64,000 nt of DNA, taken from the NCBI GenBank assembly GCA_015039365.1, contig WION01000028.1, positions 1 through 64,000 on the forward strand. The letters run 5' to 3'. Source of the stretch: Amanita rubescens. Its lineage: Eukaryota > Basidiomycota > Agaricomycetes > Agaricales > Amanitaceae. How positions within the stretch are numbered: position 1 is the stretch's first letter; every line of letters starts with the position of its first letter. Position numbers and translations under genes: made by a program. Shown one piece after another: positions 2,487-55,700 of this stretch. Below the pieces are notes generated by a model. That model searched no databases. It was not told where the DNA came from and worked only from the letters and a program-made list of their open reading frames with translations.

Positions 2487-4380
2487 CATCTCTGATGACC
2501 TGTGACCTTATCGATATATCGGTGACGTTGCTTTTCATGATTTGTACGTTGCACTAAGGAGGACGCTGACTTTAACCTGTTCGGGCTATGTAGGCATTTA
2601 CATAAATATGGCAGGGCATTTCTGTACTTATATATGTTCACTCAGGGATGGATTTGTATCAATTCCTATGACGGATTTCGAACTGCGCTGATAGCGACCC
2701 GACATTGTATGGCACAGGTTTATGTCAAACATCTCAGTCACCGGGTACATATTGTGGACGAATGTCATTGGATCCGTTCACCCGGCGTTTCGGGAGCTCA
2801 ACCGAGACGCCCGAAAATTTGCGAGGTCCGGCTTGCTTTATCACCTGGATCCAGGATCACTCGTCCCCGACGAGGAAGCTGAATTACGCGTCAAAAATCG
2901 TTACCCGGATTCCGATTACTTGCACTGCATGACATGCTTTGAAGATCGACGGGATGCTGCCTGACAAACGTCCAGGACACATCATGCATCAACCCTGAGG
3001 CCTGAGGCCCGCGGTGGTCGTGGTATGCTCGCGAACGTAATAGCAGCCGACTCCTCGGAGTCAGCGTGTCGACGTTGGGTGTGGAACGCTCTTCCACATA
3101 CACTTATAGAACAGTGGATATTAATCCTCCGAACGGATAGAGATTTCTCGACTCTGGGAACATCGCTGACCGAACATGTGTATGACGTCATGCGCATGAC
3201 GCGAAAGCCGAACCGTATGTTTCCAATGGCATGACTGTACCTCCGCAGTGTGTCAAAGTTCTGTCAAGTTGTAAAATGGGTAGCGTCAGTTTTTGAATGG
3301 ATTGTAGAATGTTCAAGCATCTCGGGGCGCAAGTTGGATGACACGGATCCAAATTACAAACGGCGATCTTGTGAATGCGACTCTAGTCCGATCCACACTG
3401 TCTGTGGCGCAGATCTTCATACCTATCGTCGACAGGAACCCACGCGGCGAAATTGGAGCTGATCAGTATTGCGATGTGTCTCCATTCCTCGTGTTCAAAA
3501 CTTGACTCATGGCACGGCTATTGAGAATTTCTCTGCTTACAGTGACAGCAGAAACTTAAACGGTTGCATTTCGGAATATTCATAATCCTTGAAGCATAAA
3601 ATTGTTGCTCCACCACTCCAAGGTGGCAGATTGTTCTTCCCATCCGGCGTGGCTGTGTTTCGGTGCTTTCAAGGAACAGTAAGCAAACTGAAATTGCGAG
3701 TCCCGAAAGATGTCTCTGCAATTAGGCAGAATTGTCTGGGATATGACCAATGGCCAATATTGACAAGGATGTTTAATATCATGTTTTCAATTCTCAAACC
3801 AATGATAGACTGGTGTGATCTTCCCGGGCCTTAGTTAAGTCAAGTCATTGCCAATGATGATTTTTGACTCTACATGCCGGCCCGGGCCTTTACTAATCTG
3901 TCTTGAACCTTGAAGTTTGAAGTTTAACGAGAGGCGAGCAAAGGAACTTGAGAGTCAAAGTGATCCTTAAGTAGGCTGCTGACTCATCCTGATGAGGTGG
4001 TGATTATTTTTATCTTATCGCTGTCTCACATCCTGATCATATGCTCGTCAGGAGGACCCCAACCACCAGCACGGCCCGAGGGCCGAGTGTCTAACAAGAG
4101 CTGCTTCTAAATCACTTTGAGCAGATGTTCTTGCTATGGATAAAATTTGCATTTAGTGTCTGCTTTCAGGTAATTTTTTAAGAAAAAAACTGATCCTGAT
4201 TCTTGTATTATCGTGAACCTTTGGATAAATATATGTGGACTTAGCCTTCTGCAATGCTTCCTGAGCAGTTTCGGGGTCGTCAATCATTCCGTAATTTCGT
4301 GACATGTGACATCACGTGTGAGAATACTTAAAGGGAGCAATCTGTAGCATTCATTCAGCCTTTTGCCACATCTGTAGGGG
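2487..4380. other. Long stretch without a recognisable gene
   Basis: Several short plus-strand frames occur (for example 2722-2964, 3025-3234, 3250-3462 and 3589-3834). None joins into a longer model by plausible introns and none has a family signature that I recognise. The 2722-2964 frame reads like real protein (dense in charged residues, ending near a CMTC motif) and could be a relic exon. The last few hundred bases, including a CACGTG E-box near 4314, are the likely promoter region of the methyltransferase gene. Confidence 0.35.
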
Positions 4381-7300
4381 ATGGTTGGCAGTCACTCAAG
4401 GCCATCCCCCTCACCAGGTCCTATCTGGGAAACCATACAAGGTGTGCCCAGTAATCATGACCATATACCTCTTTGCTTATGCAAGCACTAGAGCCCGAGG
4501 ATACCCCAGAAGTATCCTCGCAGGATGAATTAGAGCAGGAATCTGTGTTACAGGAACTGCTCCCAGCAGCAGTCTTAAGAAAGAGGAAGGAACAGGCAGT
4601 TAGTCATGAAGCCAGTCTCAAGCGACCCAGAATCGGTATGGCCGAAGAGGATGGGTTTAGCCGAGGACGCCGAGGTATATCAATCACGCGTGGCGCGATT
4701 GTTTACTCACGGCATCAAGATATACCTTCTAGCATACAAATAACACCAAGGCGGCGTTTGTCTCCTGGTGTAACGCGTAGGATCGGAGAGAAGCCTGTAA
4801 ATGAGAAAGGAAGATTAGGTACGTACTTCAAAAGTGTTACATCCGCTTCGAAGTGCACATATGTAAATATATATTGTAGCAGATAACAGTTATGCGGTAA
4901 AAAATAGCTCGGCGGGAAGTTCATCGATCTGGCGCAATGCGGTCGCTTCTGCCTCATCGAGTCTTCCCGTTACGCATTTTGCAGGAACCTCAAGCTCAGC
5001 GCCTCATCTCGCCCGAAAGAGGACTAAAAAAACCGCCCGCAAGCGTGCGTCAAGTCCACTGCCTCGTCGCTCCAATGTCCCTTCGGCTTTTACGAGGGTA
5101 TTGAAACGGACAAGAGAGGAAAAGAGGCGACAAAATAGTAAAGATGAATCGTCTGATTCGGAACGATTTTTGCCCATGTCGCCCTCCCTGCCACCACCGG
5201 TAATGTCTTCGGGCAAGGGAGCTGACAAATCCGTGAGCAAAACCCCAAAGTCCACTATATGTAGGAAGCCGTCAGCGACAAAACGGAAACCACCCGGCAA
5301 GTTGATTTAGAGGTGTTTCTACATTGACTCTAACGATGACTTTAGAGATAATTGAAATTACCTCGGATGGCGAGTTAGAACCTCCAAAGATGAAAATGGG
5401 AAAGGCCGAAAGTCGAACTCCGAGAGACGTTCTTGAAATTTCGTCGGATGATGACGACCCAAAGGAGACTCACAGTAGTAATGCTCAGAGTCTTCCAAAG
5501 GCTCGATCCATTTCACGTCCAGTGATTGAAATACTCGACAGTGACGATGGACTTGATACGACGTTAAGAGAAATGCATGAAGATGAAATTACGGCAGAAA
5601 TGCTCGCTCAACGAACAACGGATGAAATGGATCGTTTATCATTGCTTGGAAATCAATCACTACATGATGAGCCATCACTCCTTCCTCCCGAATCCGCTTC
5701 TGAAGGGTCAGAAGACATGCAATTTGGTGATGCTGTGTCCGGGACCTCATCCAACAATAGTAGCAGCGGTCGAGTCCAAACGCCACAGCGGGGCATCGAT
5801 GACATTCCTAGCGCACACATTAGAATGGATGTTAACGAAGATTCGTCCCCCGCAATACCGCGCATAGACGCCACTCTTCCTTCGCAAGAAGTCGATTCGC
5901 CGCCCTCTAGTGCGCCTGTAGCATCACTCATCTTCCCTAATGTCAATGTTACTCCATTTTCGTTACCACCGCCGATCTCACCTTTCAAAAGTTCGCCTAA
6001 ACTTCGAGAACTGCGTTCATTGCCCACATCGCCGATACGGAGAACCTTTGTTGGATCAATAAAAAGTGATGACCTTAATGCGTACATGGGCCCTGCAGCG
6101 ACAACCGTTGATTCCGCGTCAATTCGTCACTCACTTTCACCAATGCGGCGATTGGCAAGAAAACGCGAGGACCGCAGAATGTCAGCATCGAACGTGGGAC
6201 AGACACCGTCCAAAAAGGAAAGATCGTTGTCTGGCGACATGTATACTTGCAGCAACAATGCACTTAATTTTCCCCCCCAGCAAGAAAAAATCTTTTCCAA
6301 GCAATGAGCCGCCCCATGATACGGTATGTCAGCGATTAACGTCTATTTCATTTCTCACATTTGCTCAAGATGGACGGAGCAGCGGGAGAACCCTCAAGCC
6401 CGTCTGCTTCGCTTCCGCGGACGCGATTGTCTCTGAGCATGAACCTGGCTGATGCTATAACTCAGGCTAGTCAAGACAACAATAGGAAGCTAGCAATTCA
6501 TACGCATCCCGAAGCGGATGCAATTGTGAAATTGCACCCGCGAGCTAGTCAAGAAGCCATCGATAAATCAAAACTTTTTTTGGAGATGGTGCAGATGTCT
6601 CTTCCTGAGGGGTCCCGCTACCGTGACAGCGCTCCCCTTAAGCACGATTTGCCACTCCAAACACGAGGGACAGAGCACCAACAATCTCCACAGGATTCTG
6701 ATTTTGCAGGGCATGAAGAAATAGATTCTCCAGTTGACTTGGGGCCCTCTATTACAAATGAAGTTGTTATGATGGAGCAAAATGAAATGTTGCATGGTGA
6801 TCCTGCTCAAAGGGTGAGCGTGGGAATATTCCCATATCAGGTAATACTAAGAACAATTAAGCCACAGACCTTGCCTCTGAATACCGTCACACATGACGAA
6901 AGATCAAGCATCCCAGAAACTACAGCAATAAAGGATAAAGTAATTGAAAGCGACGACGAACTAGAATATATCGATGAGCCAGAGAATGGCACCGTCGTCC
7001 AAGGTATTGCCGGTATCAACATCGCTGAGGGCGACCTGGAGGGAATAAGGGACTCAGAGCCCTTCGCCGAGCAACCGTCATCCAGCACTACGAATGCCCC
7101 AAACATTATAAACGGCATCGTCCCTACCGTTGCCGCCTCTCTAAGCCGTGCTTATACGCCACATTTAGTATCTTCCTCTCTCGACGGGTTCGGCATCAAA
7201 ATTGATGGTTTTACTATCATCAATTGGCTCGAATTTCGTAAGAACTTCACGCCAAAATATTTCCTGGGAAGGGATCTTCCTCATACACTGCAGGACTACA

Positions 7301-46915: not shown

Positions 46916-48101
46916 ATGTCTTCTCCTGCCAACCAAATCTCATCCTTGCCTGCCCTGAGGCCACCCAGCTCTTCATTCACTGGTAGAAATACCTACTTGG
47001 AGACACTCAAGAAACACTTCTGTAATCCCAGTGAACAAAGGAACTATTTACTTCTTTATGGCATGGGTGGCATTGGTAAGACTCAGATATGTCTACAATT
47101 TATAGAACAAAACAAAAAATGGTATGATATCCAAAATCCTTGTTTGATTTATAGTCCATTTGACTTATTAAAACATTAGTTTTCCTGACATATTCTGGAT
47201 TGATGCTTCTGCTGAATCTACAATTAAGCTCAGACTTGAACAAATTGCAAGGGTGAACAATGTCCCTGTTGAATCTATCCTGGATTGGATCTCTATCAGA
47301 AACAATTGGCTTATCATATTTGACAATGCAGATGGAGGATATGAGATAGTTGATAAATTCCTACCACCAGGAAGAAGTGGTGGTGTTTTGATTACAAGCA
47401 GGAATATAGAGCTCATGAGGATCACATCAAAGAAAAATTCCATTGAAGTTAAAGAAATGGATGCAGGGGAAGCCACTTCACTCCTTCTGAAATCTGCTGC
47501 AATTGAGGACAACTCTGAAAGGATTTTGGCTCTAGCAAATAGGGTTGTCTCAGAGTTGGGATATATTCCACTTGCAATTGATCAAGCTGGGGCATATGTA
47601 CAAGCCTGTGGTTGTGATCTAAATGATTACATGGATTTGTATACTCACCAATGCAGAGAGTTGATGTCCAACTCATTGTTCAAAGGTGCATCCAATTATG
47701 GAAAATCTACATATGGGACATGGGAGATTTCAATGAAAGAGATTGAATCTAGAGCTGTGAAAGATGCAGGACCAGGAAGTGTTGTAGCTCAGAGTGCAGT
47801 TATCATTTATAAATACTTTGCATTCCTGCACTATAATGACATATCAGAAGACATATTTAGGAGTGCTGCTGAGAACTACAAAAAAAGGGACATTGAGCAA
47901 GAAAAAGATTTAGGACTATCATTATTAGTAGTGCTATTGGATGCTAAATCACTGTGTAACGTTCTTACTGAAAGGAACCTAATAAGGTTCCAACTTAATC
48001 ACCCCTTGCGTCTTGCACTGAATCAACGTGTATATGTGATACCGTGCGGTGTACGCGAGTGGGGTAAAGTAAGGTGTAAGATCGTGTGTCACAAAGTGTG
48101 A
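46916..48101 (+). pseudogene. STAND/NB-ARC NTPase (NLR-like), C-terminally truncated
   Basis: Exons 46916-47121 and 47180 onward. The P-loop is YGMGGIGKTQ (Walker A) and the Walker B region is NWLIIFDNAD; the DIFWIDAS, SGGVLITSRN and YIPLAIDQAGAYV segments are the ARC-type core of fungal NLR-like proteins, which act in non-self recognition and programmed cell death. No N-terminal effector domain precedes the NB-ARC start and no C-terminal TPR or repeat domain follows. Family similarity stops near codon DAKSLC, and at 47955 a sequence with LTR-type ends begins; the frame then runs on by chance to 48101. Base composition is more AT-rich than in its neighbours, which fits a separate origin. Confidence 0.7.
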
Positions 48102-48284
48102 CAACCTACCATATATGTACCGTAACATAACTATCTACGAGAATAGAGGAAAACTATCTACAGGGAATAAATGAGGGAGCTAAACGTAGCTCCCATCCTC
48201 GTATTTGGAGATCCTCAAGGGATCTCCCATCTTGATGAGTATCTTGATGAATATGTACGAGAGCTACATAGTAGCCCCGTTACA
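47955..48284. mobile_element. Probable long terminal repeat (330 bp)
   Basis: It starts TGTAACG and ends CGTTACA, 7-bp inverted ends of the TG...CA type usual for LTRs, and interrupts the STAND gene. It already contains the hairpins typical of the segment that follows (arms GGAACCT/AGGTTCC, GGGAGCTA/TAGCTCCC, GGAGATCC/GGATCTCC). No matching second LTR or 5-bp duplication is visible in the window, so it is either the 5' LTR of an element whose other end is lost, or a chance resemblance. Confidence 0.45.
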
Positions 48285-49102
48285 TCCTCCCCCACAAGAT
48301 TGCATTACAATCTTAAGAAATGATGATATAAATGTCGTATATCTTCGAAAATTGTGTCTTAAGATCTTCGTGAGGTGTTAAACACTCGTCACATCCTCCC
48401 CCACTCGCCATAGGTCATGGGCGATGTATAGGAATACGGGAGAGGCTTGCATATGCATTGAACTTGCTTGGGAGAGTAGGAAAGAGGGGAGAGAACAATG
48501 ATTCCACTGAAGTAAAATCTGATTTCTCCCCGAGGATGTAGGGAATAGCAGGTAGAGTCTATCCCCGGTAAAAGCGAACATCTACGGTGTTGTTCACTTG
48601 TAGTTTGGGCCTGCAGAGTATTCGACGTGTGGGCGCGTCGAAATTCGGCGTAACTTCCGAGTATGGAAGGTGGTCACGCGAATGTGACAGCAGGCTGAGG
48701 CGGATGCGTCGAAATGAATTGCGCTCGGTTGGGCATTGTCGTGGATGGTCCCGATGACTTGGATAGGATGCCTAGGGTGAGGGCATTGCTCGTGCAAAGT
48801 GTGAAGTCGAACGGTTGAAACGGGGACGCTCCATAGGCTTTCAACGTCGAGAGATCGGTACCGGTTGAAAGGGAATAGCCGGGATCCGGTGGTCATGTGA
48901 CACGCGCGACTTGCGCGTCAAAATCCGTTTATTGCTAGGGGCTCTAGCAATAATCCAAGGCGGGGCTCCGAATCCAGGAGCTCTCCAAGAATCCAATACG
49001 GCTTCAAGAGCCGTGTACTATCCTGGTGAAGATCGAGAGGACTCAGAGGAGAGGGAGAAAGGAGACGAGACGGCCGTGAGGGGATGGAGGCTAGGGCATA
49101 TG
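48285..49102. other. Left part of the hairpin segment, no gene
   Basis: It holds two similar CATCCTCCCCCAC sequences (48283 and 48393) and hairpins such as AAGATTG/CAATCTT, ATTGCTA/TAGCAAT and CGGCT/AGCCG. No open frame of note. Confidence 0.5.
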
Positions 49103-52100
49103 GTGCGTCTCTTCAAGTCTCTTCTTTCGTTTCTTCCTTTCGTTCCGTTCGGCTTGCTGATATGATTGCTGGGCTAGCGCGATGGAACTTCAACGCTGAA
49201 TGGGGACCGATCTCGGGGGATAGGAAATGGAGAATAGGGACCAGATAGACATGGTCCCGGGATAACAGATGGGTTTCTCCCCCACATGACGTACTTTGGG
49301 GAGAAGGGAATGGTGCAGATGCCGGGTAAGTACCTGATATCTTTCCTGTCGACGTGGTTGACGAGCGTCTGAGCCTAGACGCATATAACAGGCAGATAGC
49401 GAGAGCTTGTCCTCTCGCGTGTTTGATAGAAGGGAACGGGCTCAGGAACGGCCCGTTTGACGTTATAGACGAATGGGGAGCTGAGGGAATGCGAGAGCTG
49501 ATGCGGAAGAGCAGGACGAGACGAAGGCGGGGATTCCGGGAGAGGTACATTCTTTTCTTTCTATTTCTTCGTTTCTCGCTGACCGATTTCTTTAAGCCGT
49601 GTCTTATCGATTCACAGGACTCAGAAGCGAGTCCTTTATGGATTTCCCACCGAATGGACGAGAGGCAAGAGGGAAGCGATGGGTTGGCTTCGGGACTAGG
49701 TAAGGCCTGTAGCTCTCTTTGCTCCTTTGCTTGTAGTAACTGCGTCATATAGGCGCGGCATCTTATGCAAATCGACCGTCAACGTCAAGGAATGGGACTC
49801 ATTCGAGTCCCGAATGTGTTCGGAGAGTTCGTTGGAACTCTCCATCGTTTTGAACGATTGATCCTAACTAACACGCCCAGCGTCTCTTCCCCTTCAAGAA
49901 GGAAAAAAAAAAAACGGGCGTATATATTAATTGAGGGAACTCTCGTATGAGTTCCCGTGGGTTGTTGAGGGTATAGGCACTTTGGTAAGTCTTTTTATAC
50001 CCGAGGATTATGATTTACTGACGACCTGAATGTAGCGTCGTCTTTTGTCCGTTATAGGTGGTTTACGGCCGGGAGGAGCAGTAGACGAGGTAGACGAGGG
50101 ATGGCTGCGAGGGAGCAGCCTTGGCGTCAGGTATGTTCTCGTTTTCTATTCGTTTCGAATTGTATTAACTGCGTCGTATAGATGCAGCTATCCCGGTTCG
50201 TCGGACGATAATGGGAGAGGACTCAGCACGAGTTCTCTCCAGGATTCTTGTTTGAGACCTGGACAATTCGTCGGTCTCGAGGGTCGGACTATGCGTCGCC
50301 CTCTCGCATATTGGAACGAACGAGGGCCAGGCGGTATTCCCGATGACGCGGTGTCAAACGGATGGACGGGGAGGACTCTACGGTGAGTCCTCCGGTAAAT
50401 ATTAGTGGAGAGTTCTCCGTTTTTAGGCTCGGACGAATCTAATACGACTCGTCACGAGTTTTTTTCCCTTCTTACAAGAAGGAGGTTGTTATTAAGTGTG
50501 GAGACTCTCAGGGAGTCTCCTTCCGAATAAATTGATTAATTTGGTGAGTTATGAGTTTATAACTTGACTGTATCCGTTTTGCTGATATATATTCATAAGT
50601 TTACAGATTTACATGTGTGGAGGGCTCAAGATTAGCCCTCCGAATTAAATCGCAAATACTGCAAGAGGACGACGACGAACGAGACGAAGAAATGGCAATG
50701 ACGTGGCAGTCTTGCCAGAGTGCTCGTAAATCGGGATGCGTCGACGTTTGACTGTTGTCGCGGCCTCAAGCAGTCGGTGCGGATGAGATTGGACGGTTTG
50801 GGCAGTATTCGTACTGCCCGATATAAAGGTGAGTGGCTGTCACCCGGATTATTCATTTTATTGACGACAAGGTGGTTTCGTCGTCTCGAATTGACCGCAA
50901 TGTTAGGCGGCTTACAGCGGGCGCGCCAAACGCGTTCGACGCACTCGAAATGAGGGGTTTCCGCCCACCACGAAGGCTCGGGCGAAAGTATAGGCAACGC
51001 GTTCGTCGCGGTCTTGGCGTCGACGTAGGCATAAGAAGGAGGGGCTGAAGTGGGAGACTCGTCATCCTCGATGTACTCGTGGATGATTGTGTACGCCGTC
51101 TCTTCGGCCTTGCGATTACGGACTGTGTGGAAGGTAATGACACTGAGGGCCCACATCATTCTCAACAAAACGTCGAGACCATAGCCAAGAACGAGCGTGA
51201 CGGCGTAGCCAATGGGTTTGGGTATAGGTGGTGTGAGTACCACCACGGGTTGAGGTGAGCACTGGCTAGTACTCAAGTTGAGTTTAGTATTAACGATATC
51301 CGAAGGACATCGCTGGGAGCTTCCGAGTCTCGAGACTGGAAGCTCCGAGGGCTTCGGTTGGAGCTGGTCTATATTCAGCTGAAGGGATTGTGGAACCAGC
51401 TGAGGCTCGGCTGGCATACGTGAACGCGGTAGAGGGACCGCGGGGGAATCAAGTGAGTACCGAACGATGTTCGTTTTCACGTTGCTGACAACGCTTAGGT
51501 CGCGTTGTTGGATTGTTGTTCCAGCGGGTCCCTGTGGAGCATCTCGAGGGTACGAGGAGCCGGATTGTCGAGTTCTCCCGGTCTTGGATAAGATGGGAGA
51601 AGAGTTAATGGCCTTCTCGGCCTTACATTCGGGTGAGTACTCGTTGGCACTCGCCGGGTTGATCGATGTTTTGATGACATCCCAAGGACGTCGTCGGGAT
51701 GTATGAAGCCAGTCGAGATCAATACTCGACTGTGTGAGCGGACGGACCAGTGGATATGCGTCAAGCTTGAAGATGTGTCTCGGCTGGCAGGATGGAGAAG
51801 CCTGCATAGGATAGGCAGACGCAGACGAGTGGAACGGCGTGAAGGCCGTATTGGGTACCGGTGAGCGCGGGCTCACGCTCATATCCACGTCACTGACAGT
51901 GTGTAGGTTCCGCTGCCATCGGTTGTTCGCTTCGTCAAACGCAAGTCCGGGGAGCCGCATGATGGATCCCAAATGTTCAGAGGAGAGCTCGTTTGCTCTC
52001 CGGGCCTTGGGATGAGGTTGAGGAACAGCATCAGGTTGTACCAGAGGGGCTTCGGGACTTTCAGGCTCAGGTGAGCGTATCGTTACGCTCGTTTCTATTT

Positions 52101-54667
52101 CTTTATTGACGACTTTTACAATAGGTCGTCTAGAGCCAGATTCGGGGTCGGTAGCCTTGTCAGGTGGACCTTTGGGGATTCGACAAGCGGATTTGTCACA
52201 GGCGAGGGAGCGTCGGTTGATACGCTCCCGGATATAAGCAGCAGCTCTCGCGAGCTGTCCTCCTTCATTCCTCGAAGGAGTTAGGGTATGTTGGGACTGT
52301 CTTCGAACAGTCCCGGTATAAGGTGAGTGTGGTAGTTCGTGACTCGCCGGTGATTTCTTATTGACGACATTTAGGATATGTCGTCTGGGTACCACCTCAA
52401 CAGGCGGTGAAGGTTCGTCTGAGGTTGCACAGATGGATGCGGTTGGCGCAGGACGGATGGACGAGGGAACGGAAGTGTAGAATGGCAGCATGGAGGCTGC
52501 TGAGGTATCAGGTATGTTTTCTTCACTTCTATTGATCTGAACATTAACGACGGTGTCGTAGATCCGTCGTTTCTCCTCCGTTTCATCCGAGAGGAAAAGG
52601 TTTGGGACTCGTGCGCCGACGAGTCCTTGAAATTGATTAGAGCGCTCAGCGGAACGCTCGCAGATTCCGGAGGACTGAGTTGCTCGTCCTCCCCTGGATT
52701 CAGCAAATAGCGAGACTTCTCCCGCAACGGGAGAAGATGGGCCTTCATTAGTCGGAAGTGAAAGGAATGTATTGGAGACCCGAGAAAGGGTCTCCGACAA
52801 ACGGTGCGTAGTATTGTTATTTACTACATGATTCGTACTCACGACGCTCGACGTGCGTCGTTTAGAATTCATTGAGACAAGGGATGTAGTCCTATCTTTG
52901 GAAGAACGGGTTGGAGATGCCCGAGCTGAGGATACTGTGACGGGCGGGGGTTTTGACAACGAGGAGGCCGTCTTGAGTACAGGTAAGTACTCGACTGCAC
53001 TTATTCCTTTCGTAGGGCTGACTTTCGCCTTTCCAAGATATGTTTTCTCGACATCCCGACGTTTCGGCAAGGGAGCCGAGACGGTTCGGCCAGAGGGCTT
53101 ATTGCCGATGCGAGAGTTTCCCTCCGGGAGCTCTCTGGTACTCAGAACGGTATGTTTAGATTGTTCTCCAGTCTTAACGTGTATGCTGGAGCTGAGTGAA
53201 GGTCGGGAGATGGACAAGACCATCTCCGGGACGGGTTTGTCAAGTATAGGGTTTCGAGCCAGCGTAGGCTCGCGAGCAATATTTGGGGGACTCTTAATGA
53301 GTCCCGGGGGTTCAAAAGGACTGTCCGGCTTCGCAGAGCTCGGATTAGCTTCAGAACGGGTCATTTGAACTTGTTCGGGCATATTTCGAGTCTCGGGAGT
53401 CGAAACTCTCTGATTGGCCACAAGTATAACTTGCAGGTGAATTTCTTCAAGAGAAGAGTGTCGCAAAAGGCCAGGATGGACGGGAATGGTGACGGGAGTG
53501 GATCCTGGTAGCGTGAGGGCTACCGAAGCTTCAGGTAAGTTGTTTTTGTTATTTTCTTTTTCTTTGCTAATTACGGCGTCCAGTGTACGCCGTTCTTCCC
53601 CCGTTTCACCAAAGGATGGAAGAGGAATGACTTGTTCGTTGGCAAGTCGTCCAAATTGGATGGAATGCTCTGCGGAGCGTTCCGGGATGTTTTCGGGAAG
53701 CTCGAACGAGCTTCCGAGTGGTCTTACAGCTCGTTTGAGCTGATCCGAATCTTCTGCATTGGGAGCAGATGGCGTTTTACCAAACGGCCGATTGGCGGCT
53801 GGCAATGATACTCTAGAACGAGTATCAACTCCTTGGTGAGTTCTTCTGCTCGCCGTTTGTTTCGTATTGACAACGTTAGGCGTACGCCGTTCAGAAACGT
53901 TTGGAAGAGTTGAATTAGGCTTGTTTGAGAGCCGGTTTGAAGGGATGGCCCGTAAAAAGGAGACGGGCGAGAGCTTAGACAGCGTGAGGGCTGTCTTGGT
54001 CGAAGGTGCATGTTTTGATGTATCTGCTTGTTCCTTTGTACTAACGATCGCGTTTCCCGTTTGAGGAGTTAACCTGGATGCGACCTTTGAACTAGGAACG
54101 CGTAACATAGCGGCGGCAACAACTCGGGACTTGGGTAATGACTTAATGGTCCCCGTACTCTTGTCCGAGTGTTTCTGGACAAGTACTGGCGGTTCCGACA
54201 ATTGTCGCTTCTCAACATGCGTAGGAGACTTCGACGAAGTACAGGAGACGGCTGGTGCTGTCTCCGCTGTCAATTCTGAGGGAGGTTTCCCATGGAAACC
54301 ATTATTATGAGCCTTGGATAGCTCGTTATCCTTGGCTAGGGAACTCCGGCGATTCCTATGGGGTTCCCGAGGTGTAGAAAGGGAGCTTGTCTTCAACGAG
54401 CTCAGACGTGTTTGGGAACGAGTCATTTGAACTCGTTCCGATGCGTTTCGAGACTCAAGAGTCGAGTCTCGCTTTCTTCTAACCTCTCGTATGACTCGTG
54501 GAGAGTCGTGTTTGTTTGAAAGGGTTGAAGGACATGGCTTGGGCGTAGCAGGAGAGATAGGGATTGGCGAGGAGACGGGGATGGGATCAGACGGCTTGTA
54601 TGCTGCCGAAGCATCAGGTGAGGGGATATCCTCGCCTTTTACATGTATACTAACGACGGAGTTGCAG
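49103..54667 (+). repeat. Series of intron-like units on the plus strand
   Basis: At least 15 units of about 40-75 bp have a donor GTGAGT, GTAAGT or GTATGT, a branch-like TTGAC, TTAAC or CTAAC, and an AG: for example 49326-49365, 49985-50035, 50131-50181, 50829-50871, 51255-51305, 51453-51498, 51861-51899, 52071-52124, 52323-52374, 52512-52561, 53535-53583, 53836-53879 and 54618-54667. In most, the AG lies in the loop of a hairpin joining the branch region with the downstream flank, as in 52363-52385 (GACGACAT/ATGTCGTC), 51488-51508 (ACAACGC/GCGTTGT) and 54652-54677. The sequences between units are not open on the plus strand where checked, so a plus-strand protein is not supported. A spliced non-coding RNA or inserted intron-like elements are possible. 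Confidence 0.5.
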
Positions 54668-55155
54668 GTCCGTCGTTCCTCCCGCGTTTTACCCAGAAGA
54701 GATGGAGTCTGGGCTTGCAAACCAGCAAGTCCATGTATCGACGTGGAGCACTCGGTTATGTGCTCCTTTGGCGTTTCGGGAAGTGTAGGCGTATCCTGGT
54801 CTTCCGCAGATGATTTGGAAATCGTGGAGGCCTCCTGTTTCACTCGAGGTGCGGGAACGGCTTTGGGGCGCGTCGCGTCGCGCGAATTTACGCGTATTGA
54901 GTCCCAAGCTTCGACTAATGTCCAGAAGTCCTCGGATAGCATTTCCGGGGCTATTGAACCATCGTATAAGTCCAGGTACGCGTCGCGCCAAACGTATTGC
55001 AAGTCGCGTGAAGGTTCGTCGATACTGAACTGAGATTTAAGATATTCTGCGACAAAATCATTAAACTCATTCGCGTCGTCGTAGACGAGTTGGGAACACT
55101 CGGGATAGTGTTCCCGTTCGAGAGTTTCATGTTGACTATGTAGGGTACCGGACAT
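50632..55155 (-). CDS. 1,507-codon open reading frame, Ser/Pro/Arg-rich, unknown function
   Basis: A single uninterrupted frame from ATG 55155, far too long to be chance at this composition. The N-terminal 75 residues look folded (FNDFVAEYLKSQFSID, YVWRDAYLDLYDG, SEDFWTLVEAWDSI). The rest is low-complexity and probably disordered. A short element of the form RR-x4-VV-N/S-x-K recurs about ten times every 80-130 residues (for example RRTPNVVNTK, RRTSSVVSTN, RRHILNVVNKK, RRPIVKVVNKE); it is the antisense reading of the plus-strand intron-like units. Near the C-terminus there is one possible membrane segment (YAVTLVLGYGLDVLLRMMWA), and a second hydrophobic run (FFVSFVVVLLQYL) closes the protein. 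No polymerase, integrase or zinc-knuckle motif is seen. Whether the frame is translated is open. Confidence 0.55.
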   Translation of the reverse strand: MSGTLHSQHETLEREHYPECSQLVYDDANEFNDFVAEYLKSQFSIDEPSRDLQYVWRDAYLDLYDGSIAPEMLSEDFWTLVEAWDSIRVNSRDATRPKAVPAPRVKQEASTISKSSAEDQDTPTLPETPKEHITECSTSIHGLAGLQAQTPSLLGKTREERRTCNSVVSIHVKGEDIPSPDASAAYKPSDPIPVSSPIPISPATPKPCPSTLSNKHDSPRVIREVRRKRDSTLESRNASERVQMTRSQTRLSSLKTSSLSTPREPHRNRRSSLAKDNELSKAHNNGFHGKPPSELTAETAPAVSCTSSKSPTHVEKRQLSEPPVLVQKHSDKSTGTIKSLPKSRVVAAAMLRVPSSKVASRLTPQTGNAIVSTKEQADTSKHAPSTKTALTLSKLSPVSFLRAIPSNRLSNKPNSTLPNVSERRTPNVVNTKQTASRRTHQGVDTRSRVSLPAANRPFGKTPSAPNAEDSDQLKRAVRPLGSSFELPENIPERSAEHSIQFGRLANEQVIPLPSFGETGEERRTLDAVISKEKENNKNNLPEASVALTLPGSTPVTIPVHPGLLRHSSLEEIHLQVILVANQRVSTPETRNMPEQVQMTRSEANPSSAKPDSPFEPPGLIKSPPNIAREPTLARNPILDKPVPEMVLSISRPSLSSSIHVKTGEQSKHTVLSTRELPEGNSRIGNKPSGRTVSAPLPKRRDVEKTYLGKAKVSPTKGISAVEYLPVLKTASSLSKPPPVTVSSARASPTRSSKDRTTSLVSMNSKRRTSSVVSTNHVVNNNTTHRLSETLSRVSNTFLSLPTNEGPSSPVAGEVSLFAESRGGRATQSSGICERSAERSNQFQGLVGARVPNLFLSDETEEKRRIYDTVVNVQINRSEENIPDTSAASMLPFYTSVPSSIRPAPTASICATSDEPSPPVEVVPRRHILNVVNKKSPASHELPHSPYTGTVRRQSQHTLTPSRNEGGQLARAAAYIRERINRRSLACDKSACRIPKGPPDKATDPESGSRRPIVKVVNKEIETSVTIRSPEPESPEAPLVQPDAVPQPHPKARRANELSSEHLGSIMRLPGLAFDEANNRWQRNLHTVSDVDMSVSPRSPVPNTAFTPFHSSASAYPMQASPSCQPRHIFKLDAYPLVRPLTQSSIDLDWLHTSRRRPWDVIKTSINPASANEYSPECKAEKAINSSPILSKTGRTRQSGSSYPRDAPQGPAGTTIQQRDLSVVSNVKTNIVRYSLDSPAVPLPRSRMPAEPQLVPQSLQLNIDQLQPKPSELPVSRLGSSQRCPSDIVNTKLNLSTSQCSPQPVVVLTPPIPKPIGYAVTLVLGYGLDVLLRMMWALSVITFHTVRNRKAEETAYTIIHEYIEDDESPTSAPPSYAYVDAKTATNALPILSPEPSWWAETPHFECVERVWRARCKPPNIAVNSRRRNHLVVNKMNNPGDSHSPLYRAVRILPKPSNLIRTDCLRPRQQSNVDASRFTSTLARLPRHCHFFVSFVVVLLQYLRFNSEG

Positions 55156-55700
55156 TAGGTCTGGTTCCTATGACTGACCATATCAGGCAAAATTCAGTTA
55201 AACATATATTTTCATTGCGGTACATAGTGACCCAGCATGATCTAGCGTGACCCACCGGGATCCGGCGTGAATCGGCGTGATCGAGAGTGATCCTGCGTGA
55301 ACTGAAGTGAACATTTTTTCGCATGATTAACCAGAAAGAAAACCCCGCAGGTCATTTCCACCATGCCCAACTCGTGCACGCTGGTCCACTCCGGCGCTAT
55401 GCATACCGAGAAATAGTTGTACATGCGCATGCCTTGCAGGCCAGCTTCCGACTCTAGCATAACTTAATCTGTAGACTGTGCATCAGGCAACGTAACAACA
55501 CCCGGCCCAAAATCCGCGGCCCGCGACCGCAGCAGGTACAACGTCTAGCGCTGGTAATGATGCTAAAGAGCCGCTGATGAAGGCCGCTGGGGGTGATGTC
55601 GAAGTGACTCAGTGATAGCAGGCCGAAGTTGCCCAGGTAAATCAGAGGACCCTTTGTACTAGTACTAGTACCACCGGCAATTGACTCAGAAACAGAGTTA
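55156..55700. other. Spacer with degenerate GTGA repeats
   Basis: Between 55228 and 55312 an irregular repeat of about 11 bp occurs (AGCGTGACC, GGCGTGAAT, GGCGTGATC, TGCGTGAAC, AGTGAAC). A minus-strand frame at 55324-55460 (MRMYNYFSVCIAPEWTSVHE) looks protein-like but is isolated. A TACTAGTACTAGTA palindrome lies at 55659-55672. Confidence 0.4.

Follow-up and report, generated by a model that had tools for sequence, protein, structure and literature searches.

The 64,000-nucleotide window analysed here (positions 1 to 64,000 of contig WION01000028.1 in Amanita rubescens assembly GCA_015039365.1) carries at 47955-55168, on the minus strand, what is almost certainly a 5'-truncated copy of a young, multi-copy long terminal repeat (LTR) retrotransposon family devoid of pol. 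The copy is packed with short hairpins whose arms vary together among related copies. Its sole LTR, the 3' LTR, consists of 330 bp (47955-48284, minus strand) running from TGTAACG to CGTTACA; homology to other copies starts at position 47954 or 47955, as BLAST matches add base 47954. Directly 5' of the LTR lies a polypurine tract, read in the sequence (48285-48295, minus strand; GTGGGGGAGGA in sense), and a second tract-like motif, GGGGGAGGATGTGACG, is found about 100 bp upstream of it (48387-48402, minus strand). Because the first tract abuts the LTR at 48285, the minus strand is taken as the sense strand of the element, in agreement with its long open reading frame (ORF; 50632-55155, minus strand, ATG at 55155). 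This frame would encode 1,507 residues rich in Ser and Pro and is followed by a stop-rich, hairpin-rich 3' non-coding part of the internal region (48285-50631, minus strand; one-frame translation of 48601-50632). Homology to other copies ends at the truncation point (55168/55169), so that the 5' LTR and a leader of about 670 bp, a length taken from the copy C164, are absent. An earlier note, made from the window's letters, had singled out 47955-55155 for its hairpins; its limits prove to be biological borders, with the LTR starting at 47955, the ATG at 55155 and homology ending at 55168.

Further copies were sought by a DNA search of the genome to which the window belongs (75.7 Mb in 786 contigs). 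Piwi and hydrophobin families are represented in it, and its introns look fungal in type. A 2-kb probe gave at least 63 matches at 75-100% identity among the best candidates scored, and the LTR matched 41 times across the genome, once on the window's contig. Full-length copies span 8.0-8.4 kb, their LTRs taking up about 330 bp each, and are thus far from terminal-repeat retrotransposons in miniature (TRIM), which are very short and have nearly no internal region. The LTRs of C137 and C164 have the same TGTAACG..CGTTACA ends (TGTAATG at one C164 LTR), and target duplications of 5 bp were present in both copies checked, CTGGC in C137 and CCTGT in C164. LTR pairs are 99.7-100% identical (331/331 positions in C137, including one flanking base, 322/322 in C87 and 327/328 in C164), which marks these insertions as young. 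The polypurine tract precedes both LTRs of C87, however, and this pair may therefore come from a tandem array. No TGG-type transfer RNA primer site was seen; the sequence next to the 5' LTR is CTTTTTTGCACTT both in C137 and in C223, an element bearing reverse transcriptase (RT). Copies of the family are recombinant mosaics: the ORF of the window copy is about 99.9% like C164 and its downstream part about 99.9% like C137, a pattern that would result if the template was switched among RNAs packaged together. Along 48285-55168, identity to the pieces L009 and L011 likewise alternates between about 99.9% and 80-90%.

The long ORF reaches 1,585, 1,658 and 1,690 residues in C137, C473 and C148, respectively. 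Six of the nine distinct copies inspected keep it open, with divergence reaching 20%. Among codons aligned to the window copy there are no stops in C164, C137, C87, C148, C473 and C515, three in C121a, one in C168 and three in C732, although the C87 frame is split. Pfam recognizes no family in the long ORFs of the window copy, C137, C148 and C473 or in five further ORFs of at least 120 codons of the C137 element, and no protease, RT, RNase H or integrase was found among the family's ORFs in this way. A sequence search of the PDB with the long ORF returned nothing below E 0.89 and no convincing match. The fold predicted from the single sequence of its first 169 residues has a mean predicted local distance difference test score (pLDDT) of 56 and no PDB match at E<=0.001. 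The ratio of non-synonymous to synonymous substitution rates is 0.56-0.65 against the window copy (eight copies, the near-identical C164 being left out). Since constraint on stems also reduces synonymous change, these values would indicate at most weak constraint on the protein. An RRxxxVVN-like motif, noticed by eye, recurs in the predicted protein (50632-55155, minus strand) and is encoded by both arms of hairpins.

Hairpins were counted as perfect arms with loops of 3-12 nucleotides, and 10 dinucleotide shuffles of 47955-55155 served as the control. With arms of at least 7 bp the segment holds 46 hairpins, compared with 3.6±1.9 in the shuffles and 5.3 per 7.2 kb of the remaining window. The corresponding values are 74, 12.2±1.9 and 19.4 for arms of at least 6 bp, 24, 0.5±0.7 and 1.8 for at least 8 bp, and 7, 0.3±0.6 and 1.1 for at least 9 bp. 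The excess is genuine and sharply bounded: the 2-kb flanks contain one (left) and two (right) hairpins with arms of at least 7 bp. All parts of the element contribute to this class, with four hairpins in the LTR (331 bp scanned), 12 in the 3' non-coding part (2,347 bp) and 29 in the ORF (4,524 bp). The earlier note had put the spacing at one hairpin per 60-120 bp, which fits well with the 74 hairpins of at least 6-bp arms counted in 7,201 bp (one per 97 bp), and it had correctly described the remainder of the window as unlike the segment. Codon-preserving shuffles of the ORF yield 3.1±1.6 hairpins versus the 29 observed, and an origin as a by-product of protein sequence or codon usage was rejected.

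Fold energies agree with the counts. In windows of 120 nucleotides with 60 shuffles each, the mean z-score over 119 windows of the segment is -1.48 on the plus strand and -2.05 on the minus strand, whereas 142 windows of the remaining window average -0.03 and 0.13. The lower value thus belongs to the sense strand of the element. The hairpins also share a style that had been noted as GG-containing arms: in the internal region of the window copy 21 of 42 with arms of at least 7 bp have a GG..CC base and none has CC..GG, whereas in the remaining window the same counts are 0/42 and 1/42. Among the perfect hairpins of this class in the internal region, arms are 7-10 bp long. Examples are GGGAGCTA aacg TAGCTCCC in the LTR (48175-48194), GGAGGACTC/GAGTCCTCC (50370-50393) and GGAGACTC/GAGTCTCC (50500-50520) in the 3' non-coding part, GGAGACCC/GGGTCTCC (52774-52795) and GGAACGAGT/ACTCGTTCC (54415-54439) within the ORF, and GGGAACACT/AGTGTTCCC (55092-55115) close to its start. 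Rfam at its gathering threshold finds no match in 47900-55300 or in the pieces L022 and L024.

Pairing tends to be retained as the arms diverge. For instance, GACGACAT/ATGTCGTC (52363-52385) is replaced in other copies by GACGACGT/ACGTCGTC and GACGACGC/GCGTCGTC, and GGAAGCTC/GAGCTTCC (53696-53715) by GGAAGTTC/GAACTTCC. All 11 aligned rows (pieces of 3.8-7.1 kb) contain 5.8-8.7 hairpins per kb with arms of at least 7 bp. In 13 pairwise comparisons covering 4,262 base pairs we counted 414 single and 127 double changes, 102 of the latter complementary, where independence of the two sides predicts 27.1 doubles. Sliding the partner by +1 or -1 gives 42 and 46 doubles with three complementary in each, and pairing each arm with the next hairpin gives 33, of which 10 are complementary. 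The excess of double changes rather than their complementarity is the relevant test, because double transitions are complementary by construction. The 13 comparisons were picked by one of us among the rows and are non-independent, as they have sequences in common and three pairs are counted both ways; within six of them, 24 distinct compensated events can be recognized. A separate count on a 2.1-kb piece in nine copies gives 19 two-sided cells versus 7.4±2.2 in shuffles (0/500), falling to 0-5 when slid, and eight pairs with two-sided change versus 4.8 (7/500 shuffles). Further pair types show no excess there (13 versus 17.5 shuffled). Stems are also better conserved than their surroundings: between the window copy and C148, C87 and C515 they are 92-93% identical, versus 81-82% for loops and 79-81% for all non-stem sites.

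Covariation is therefore observed directly, and we infer from it that selection maintains the pairing. These patterns suggest that the fold itself has a role in the life cycle of the element. In the six comparisons, 112 of 259 gap-free hairpins are unchanged, 25 have changed yet remain fully paired and 122 have at least one unpaired position. The proposal in the earlier note that structure rather than sequence is kept thus holds for the hairpin density, which exceeds dinucleotide and codon shuffles, and for the compensatory changes it had asked to be sought between homologous copies, but not for those hairpins with an unpaired position.

A functionless process at the DNA level could in principle create or maintain the hairpins, either by arm-to-arm conversion or by template switching in single-stranded complementary DNA or at replication. 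Arm conversion would likewise produce double changes and reduced stem divergence. Neither RNA strand shows clear G.U tolerance, as would suit such a process. However, compensated hairpins in the six comparisons carry one (37 hairpins) or two (seven hairpins) compensated pairs and all 104 changes are transitions, unlike the result of block copying; switching of whole blocks was sought in the same comparisons and none was found. Moreover, one distant Ty3 frame of this genome has no hairpins against 1.5 expected, and the GG..CC base is common to elements without detected internal similarity. We regard this process as a rather unlikely explanation. The slower change of stems than of loops, and compensations made up of one or two transitions, speak against the mutational origin that the earlier note had considered.

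The elements sharing the GG..CC base include C223, which was found through the junction pattern between tract and LTR. C223 (1449006-1459523) spans 10,518 bp, has LTRs that match each other at 98% identity and encodes protease, RT, RNase H, integrase and a Tf2-1-like SH3 domain, the integrase core scoring just under the Pfam cut-off. It shares with the window family an identical 24-bp tract-LTR junction, the LTR termini and the primer region, and a 66-bp stretch of LTR at 83% identity that includes the 20-bp hairpin of 48175-48194 (GGGAGCTACGTTTAGCTCCC), present in both C223 LTRs. By these features the window family is related to a Ty3/gypsy lineage of the same fungal genome. No internal similarity to C223 was detected, nor any to C223 proteins at E below 1.8. 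Since no matching pair of target duplications borders C223, the copy may have undergone rearrangement. C223 is likely a helper of the window family, which its lineage would mobilize. Between its integrase and 3' LTR the RT-bearing element has an extra ORF of 520 codons (L037, 5728-7290, plus strand) for which Pfam gave nothing above its cut-off, and a translated stretch near the C164 copy (L010, 3315-4010) is 51% identical to it over 232 residues.

C223 itself carries 38 hairpins in 10.5 kb, 14 of them with a GG..CC base (27/58 in C148 and 19/45 in C87). Its frames contain more than their shuffled versions, with six versus 1.1 in RT, five versus 1.4 in integrase, three versus 0.6 in protease and two versus 0.8 in ORF3. 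The density is 3.6 per kb, compared with 6.1 in the pol-less element, a 1.7-fold difference. The pol frame of C117 has 14 hairpins versus 2.0±1.2, the GG..CC type among them, and that of C224, from a sister clade at 66% nucleotide identity, has nine versus 2.6±1.6, none of GG..CC type. The LTR of the C224 piece (L043, second RT clade) matches the C223 LTR region in two stretches only, of 36 and 12 bp, and does not match the LTR of the window family. The distant frame mentioned above is the pol frame of C737 (about 32% protein identity). With this frame and the remaining window considered, the hairpins are unsupported as a general trait of host DNA or of Ty3 elements. As far as sampled, the trait appears confined to one lineage and its pol-less relative.

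The plus strand, antisense to the element, has a second distinctive feature. Strict intron-like units were defined by GTRWGB, YTRAY and YAG within 46-78 nucleotides. The window copy has 13 on this strand versus 3.1±1.6 in 50 shuffles and none on the sense strand; each of nine long rows has 13-18, each of two short rows nine, and sense strands 0-1. Within the ORF, antisense units number 9, 9 and 11 (window copy, C137 and C148) versus 2.8-3.3 after codon shuffling. Conservation was tested on 14 units after hand editing, in which one was added and some ends were moved. These lie on the plus strand at 49326-49378, 49985-50035, 50131-50181, 50544-50606, 50829-50906 (3' end uncertain, 50872 in the conservation and splicing tests), 51453-51498, 51861-51906 (5' splice site within a stem), 52071-52124, 52323-52374, 52512-52561, 52983-53036 (missed by the strict scan, added by eye and included in both tests), 53535-53583 (scan start 53513), 53836-53894 (3' end uncertain, 53878 in both tests) and 54618-54667 (scan start 54598). 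The unit at 52071-52124 has its GTGAGC in a stem, TTATTGACGAC as branch region and its AG in a hairpin loop. By eye, several units in 51861-54667 (plus strand) show a similar arrangement, with a stem (GGTGAGY..RCTCRCC) around the 5' splice site and a hairpin loop around the AG; the 3' AG is often placed in such a loop, shifting by a base or two.

Conceivably, then, the plus strand gives rise to a non-coding antisense RNA with many introns that the hairpins serve, the folds tuning splicing or the activity of the spliced RNA. In addition to the number of units, which exceeds plain and codon shuffles, conservation speaks for this: the 5' GT is kept in 100/103 cells versus 71% of other GTs and the branch motif YTRAY in 106/108 versus 66% elsewhere. 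The location of splice sites in stems or loops and a weak wobble bias toward the antisense strand point the same way. However, the 3' AG is barely better kept than other AGs (68/85, 80%, versus 75%; within a few bases, 95% versus 93%), so there is little or no excess. The two features also separate, as RT-bearing relatives have hairpins but no antisense intron excess (eight units versus 5.7±1.9 in C223 and none versus 2.2±1.8 in the C117 piece). Furthermore, the LTR and the parts between introns are hairpin-filled too, and it is the sense strand that folds better. A protein-coding antisense gene was rejected: splicing out the called introns leaves no frame of more than 160 open codons on the plus strand of the window copy, and stops interrupt most exons in every frame. 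An antisense RNA as the reason for the hairpins therefore seems unlikely to us. Antisense introns could persist through retrotransposition, because in the genomic strand they would remain unspliced.

Two other readings bear on small RNAs. Local hairpins on both strands might prevent long sense-antisense duplexes and so lower RNA interference, with antisense splicing helping. Pairing kept without strong strand preference and the antisense introns themselves would fit, as would the 36 Piwi-domain matches listed in the genome, a number that includes exon pieces and repeated copies. Short hairpins, though, generally compete weakly with long duplexes, and antisense introns are not in excess in the RT-bearing relatives. 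We hold this reading, a form of the protection from silencing named in the earlier note, to be distinctly improbable. On contigs C124 and C37 the Piwi-domain matches are clustered and repeated, with equal-scoring copies on both. Alternatively, many short hairpins of one style could be precursors of small RNAs, as the earlier note had also suggested, or binding sites of host proteins. The arms of 7-10 bp are below the size of known Dicer substrates and too short for the 20-24-nucleotide products of a microRNA-like precursor, the arm sequences vary, and Rfam gave no match in 47900-55300. Because the arms are this short, small-RNA precursors are unlikely, and this pair of roles taken together is very improbable indeed.

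The best explanation overall, to which we would give a probability of roughly 0.45, is that the family is a pol-less element whose hairpins are structural elements of its genomic RNA, aiding recognition, condensation or packaging. The genomic RNA, corresponding to the minus strand of the window, would form a chain of short hairpins, many of them GG..CC-based, one every 100-170 nucleotides depending on the arm cut-off. As dispersed, sequence-degenerate elements, they would assist recognition, condensation or packaging by Gag from the RT-bearing relative, whose own sequence has like hairpins at lower density; the higher load in the pol-less element is what a parasite in competition for Gag might show. 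The hairpins' most likely site of action is the genomic RNA, because they are present in both families and in coding and non-coding parts, whereas the intron excess occurs in one family only. Packaging or condensation is favored since it is the step most needed by a pol-less element and since hairpin density is higher there, although this choice of function is tentative. The mosaic copies, as co-packaged templates would give, were counted in its favor. Of the possibilities raised in the earlier note, the structured RNA scaffold is thus the one we prefer, in the form of the genomic RNA of an LTR retrotransposon, whose nature the note had not seen.

Several observations weigh against this explanation. 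Many hairpins are imperfect in a diverged copy, as seen in the 122 of 259 with an unpaired position. Wobble does not indicate the sense strand: single stem changes yield G.U more often on the antisense strand, both from G-C pairs (61 versus 33) and from A-T pairs (35 versus 25), a bias that compared with mutation bias has one-sided p values of 0.019 (beyond it) and 0.47 (not beyond it). In C223 the fold z-scores of sense and antisense strands (-1.35 and -1.15) do not differ significantly (p=0.14). The GG..CC style appears dispensable for related elements, because the C224 clade has no such hairpin. The packaging model leaves the antisense introns unexplained. As the fold z-score favors the sense strand and the wobble data do not, the antisense and DNA-level explanations still stand. 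A bolder version of the packaging reading is doubtful in our view. Here, the whole genomic RNA of the lineage would be a scaffold of about 70 sequence-free packaging hairpins laid over coding sequence, and the parasite, at 1.7 times the density, would out-compete its helper for Gag. The parasite would in addition have a conserved antisense RNA with more than 12 introns, which would survive retrotransposition since they are silent in the genomic strand.

Other observations concern the surroundings of the element and its copies. A gene with the P-loop motif GMGGIGKTQ (47000-47954, plus strand), presumably NB-ARC/STAND-like by that motif, is interrupted by the LTR at 47955, and its open frame continues into the LTR; Pfam gave no match in 47253-48101. 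Just right of the truncation point, a degenerate run of GTGATCC-like repeats is visible by eye (55220-55330). The contigs C471, C21, C78, C158, C430, C441 and C462 (at 3202-4762), and likewise C124, carry a 77% relative 3.2 kb from an end; these ends look like breaks at one repeated junction, and the first 900 bp of C471 showed no telomere-like repeat. Equal lengths and equal match scores suggest that the full-length copies at C121 (57967-66161) and C148 (64951-73145) arose by segmental duplication or represent separated haplotypes.

Single-stranded RNA viruses provide a working analogy for the stem-loop array, as many short, sequence-degenerate stem-loops along their packaged RNA act as distributed packaging signals; the window family differs in being an LTR retrotransposon, not a virus, and in having no known binding protein. 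Compared with Ty3/gypsy elements with a Tf2-1-like SH3 domain (C223, the RT-bearing relatives C36 and C117, and others in the genome), the family resembles C223 in LTR ends, tract junction, primer region and GG..CC hairpins, but lacks an autonomous gag-pol and detectable internal similarity. The fold of Ty1 genomic RNA matters for Gag recognition, and the motif outlined in PMC8396678 is a 5' pseudoknot region rather than a hairpin array along the whole RNA. Large retrotransposon derivatives (LARDs), such as Sukkula of grasses, are introduced in PMC7215508 as LTR-bounded elements without gag-pol, with a large internal region and conserved RNA secondary structure, presumed to be mobilized by autonomous elements. 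The window family is like them in being LTR-bounded with a large internal region, no gag-pol found and structure conserved by covariation. However, LARDs are described as being without protein products, whereas the window family keeps an ORF of 1,500-1,700 codons, read from sequence, and is set apart by its dense array of covarying short hairpins and its antisense intron-like units. Among the titles and abstract openings listed by searches of open-licence PubMed Central texts, none presents an element of this kind.

Non-autonomous LTR elements are common, and how they win packaging from a helper is poorly known. Structure that covaries at dozens of coding and non-coding sites, together with an RT-bearing relative that has the same signal, would make this question testable. 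Antisense introns are familiar from the reporters used for detecting retrotransposition; conserved ones in a retrotransposon are unusual, and would be the natural counterpart of such a reporter.

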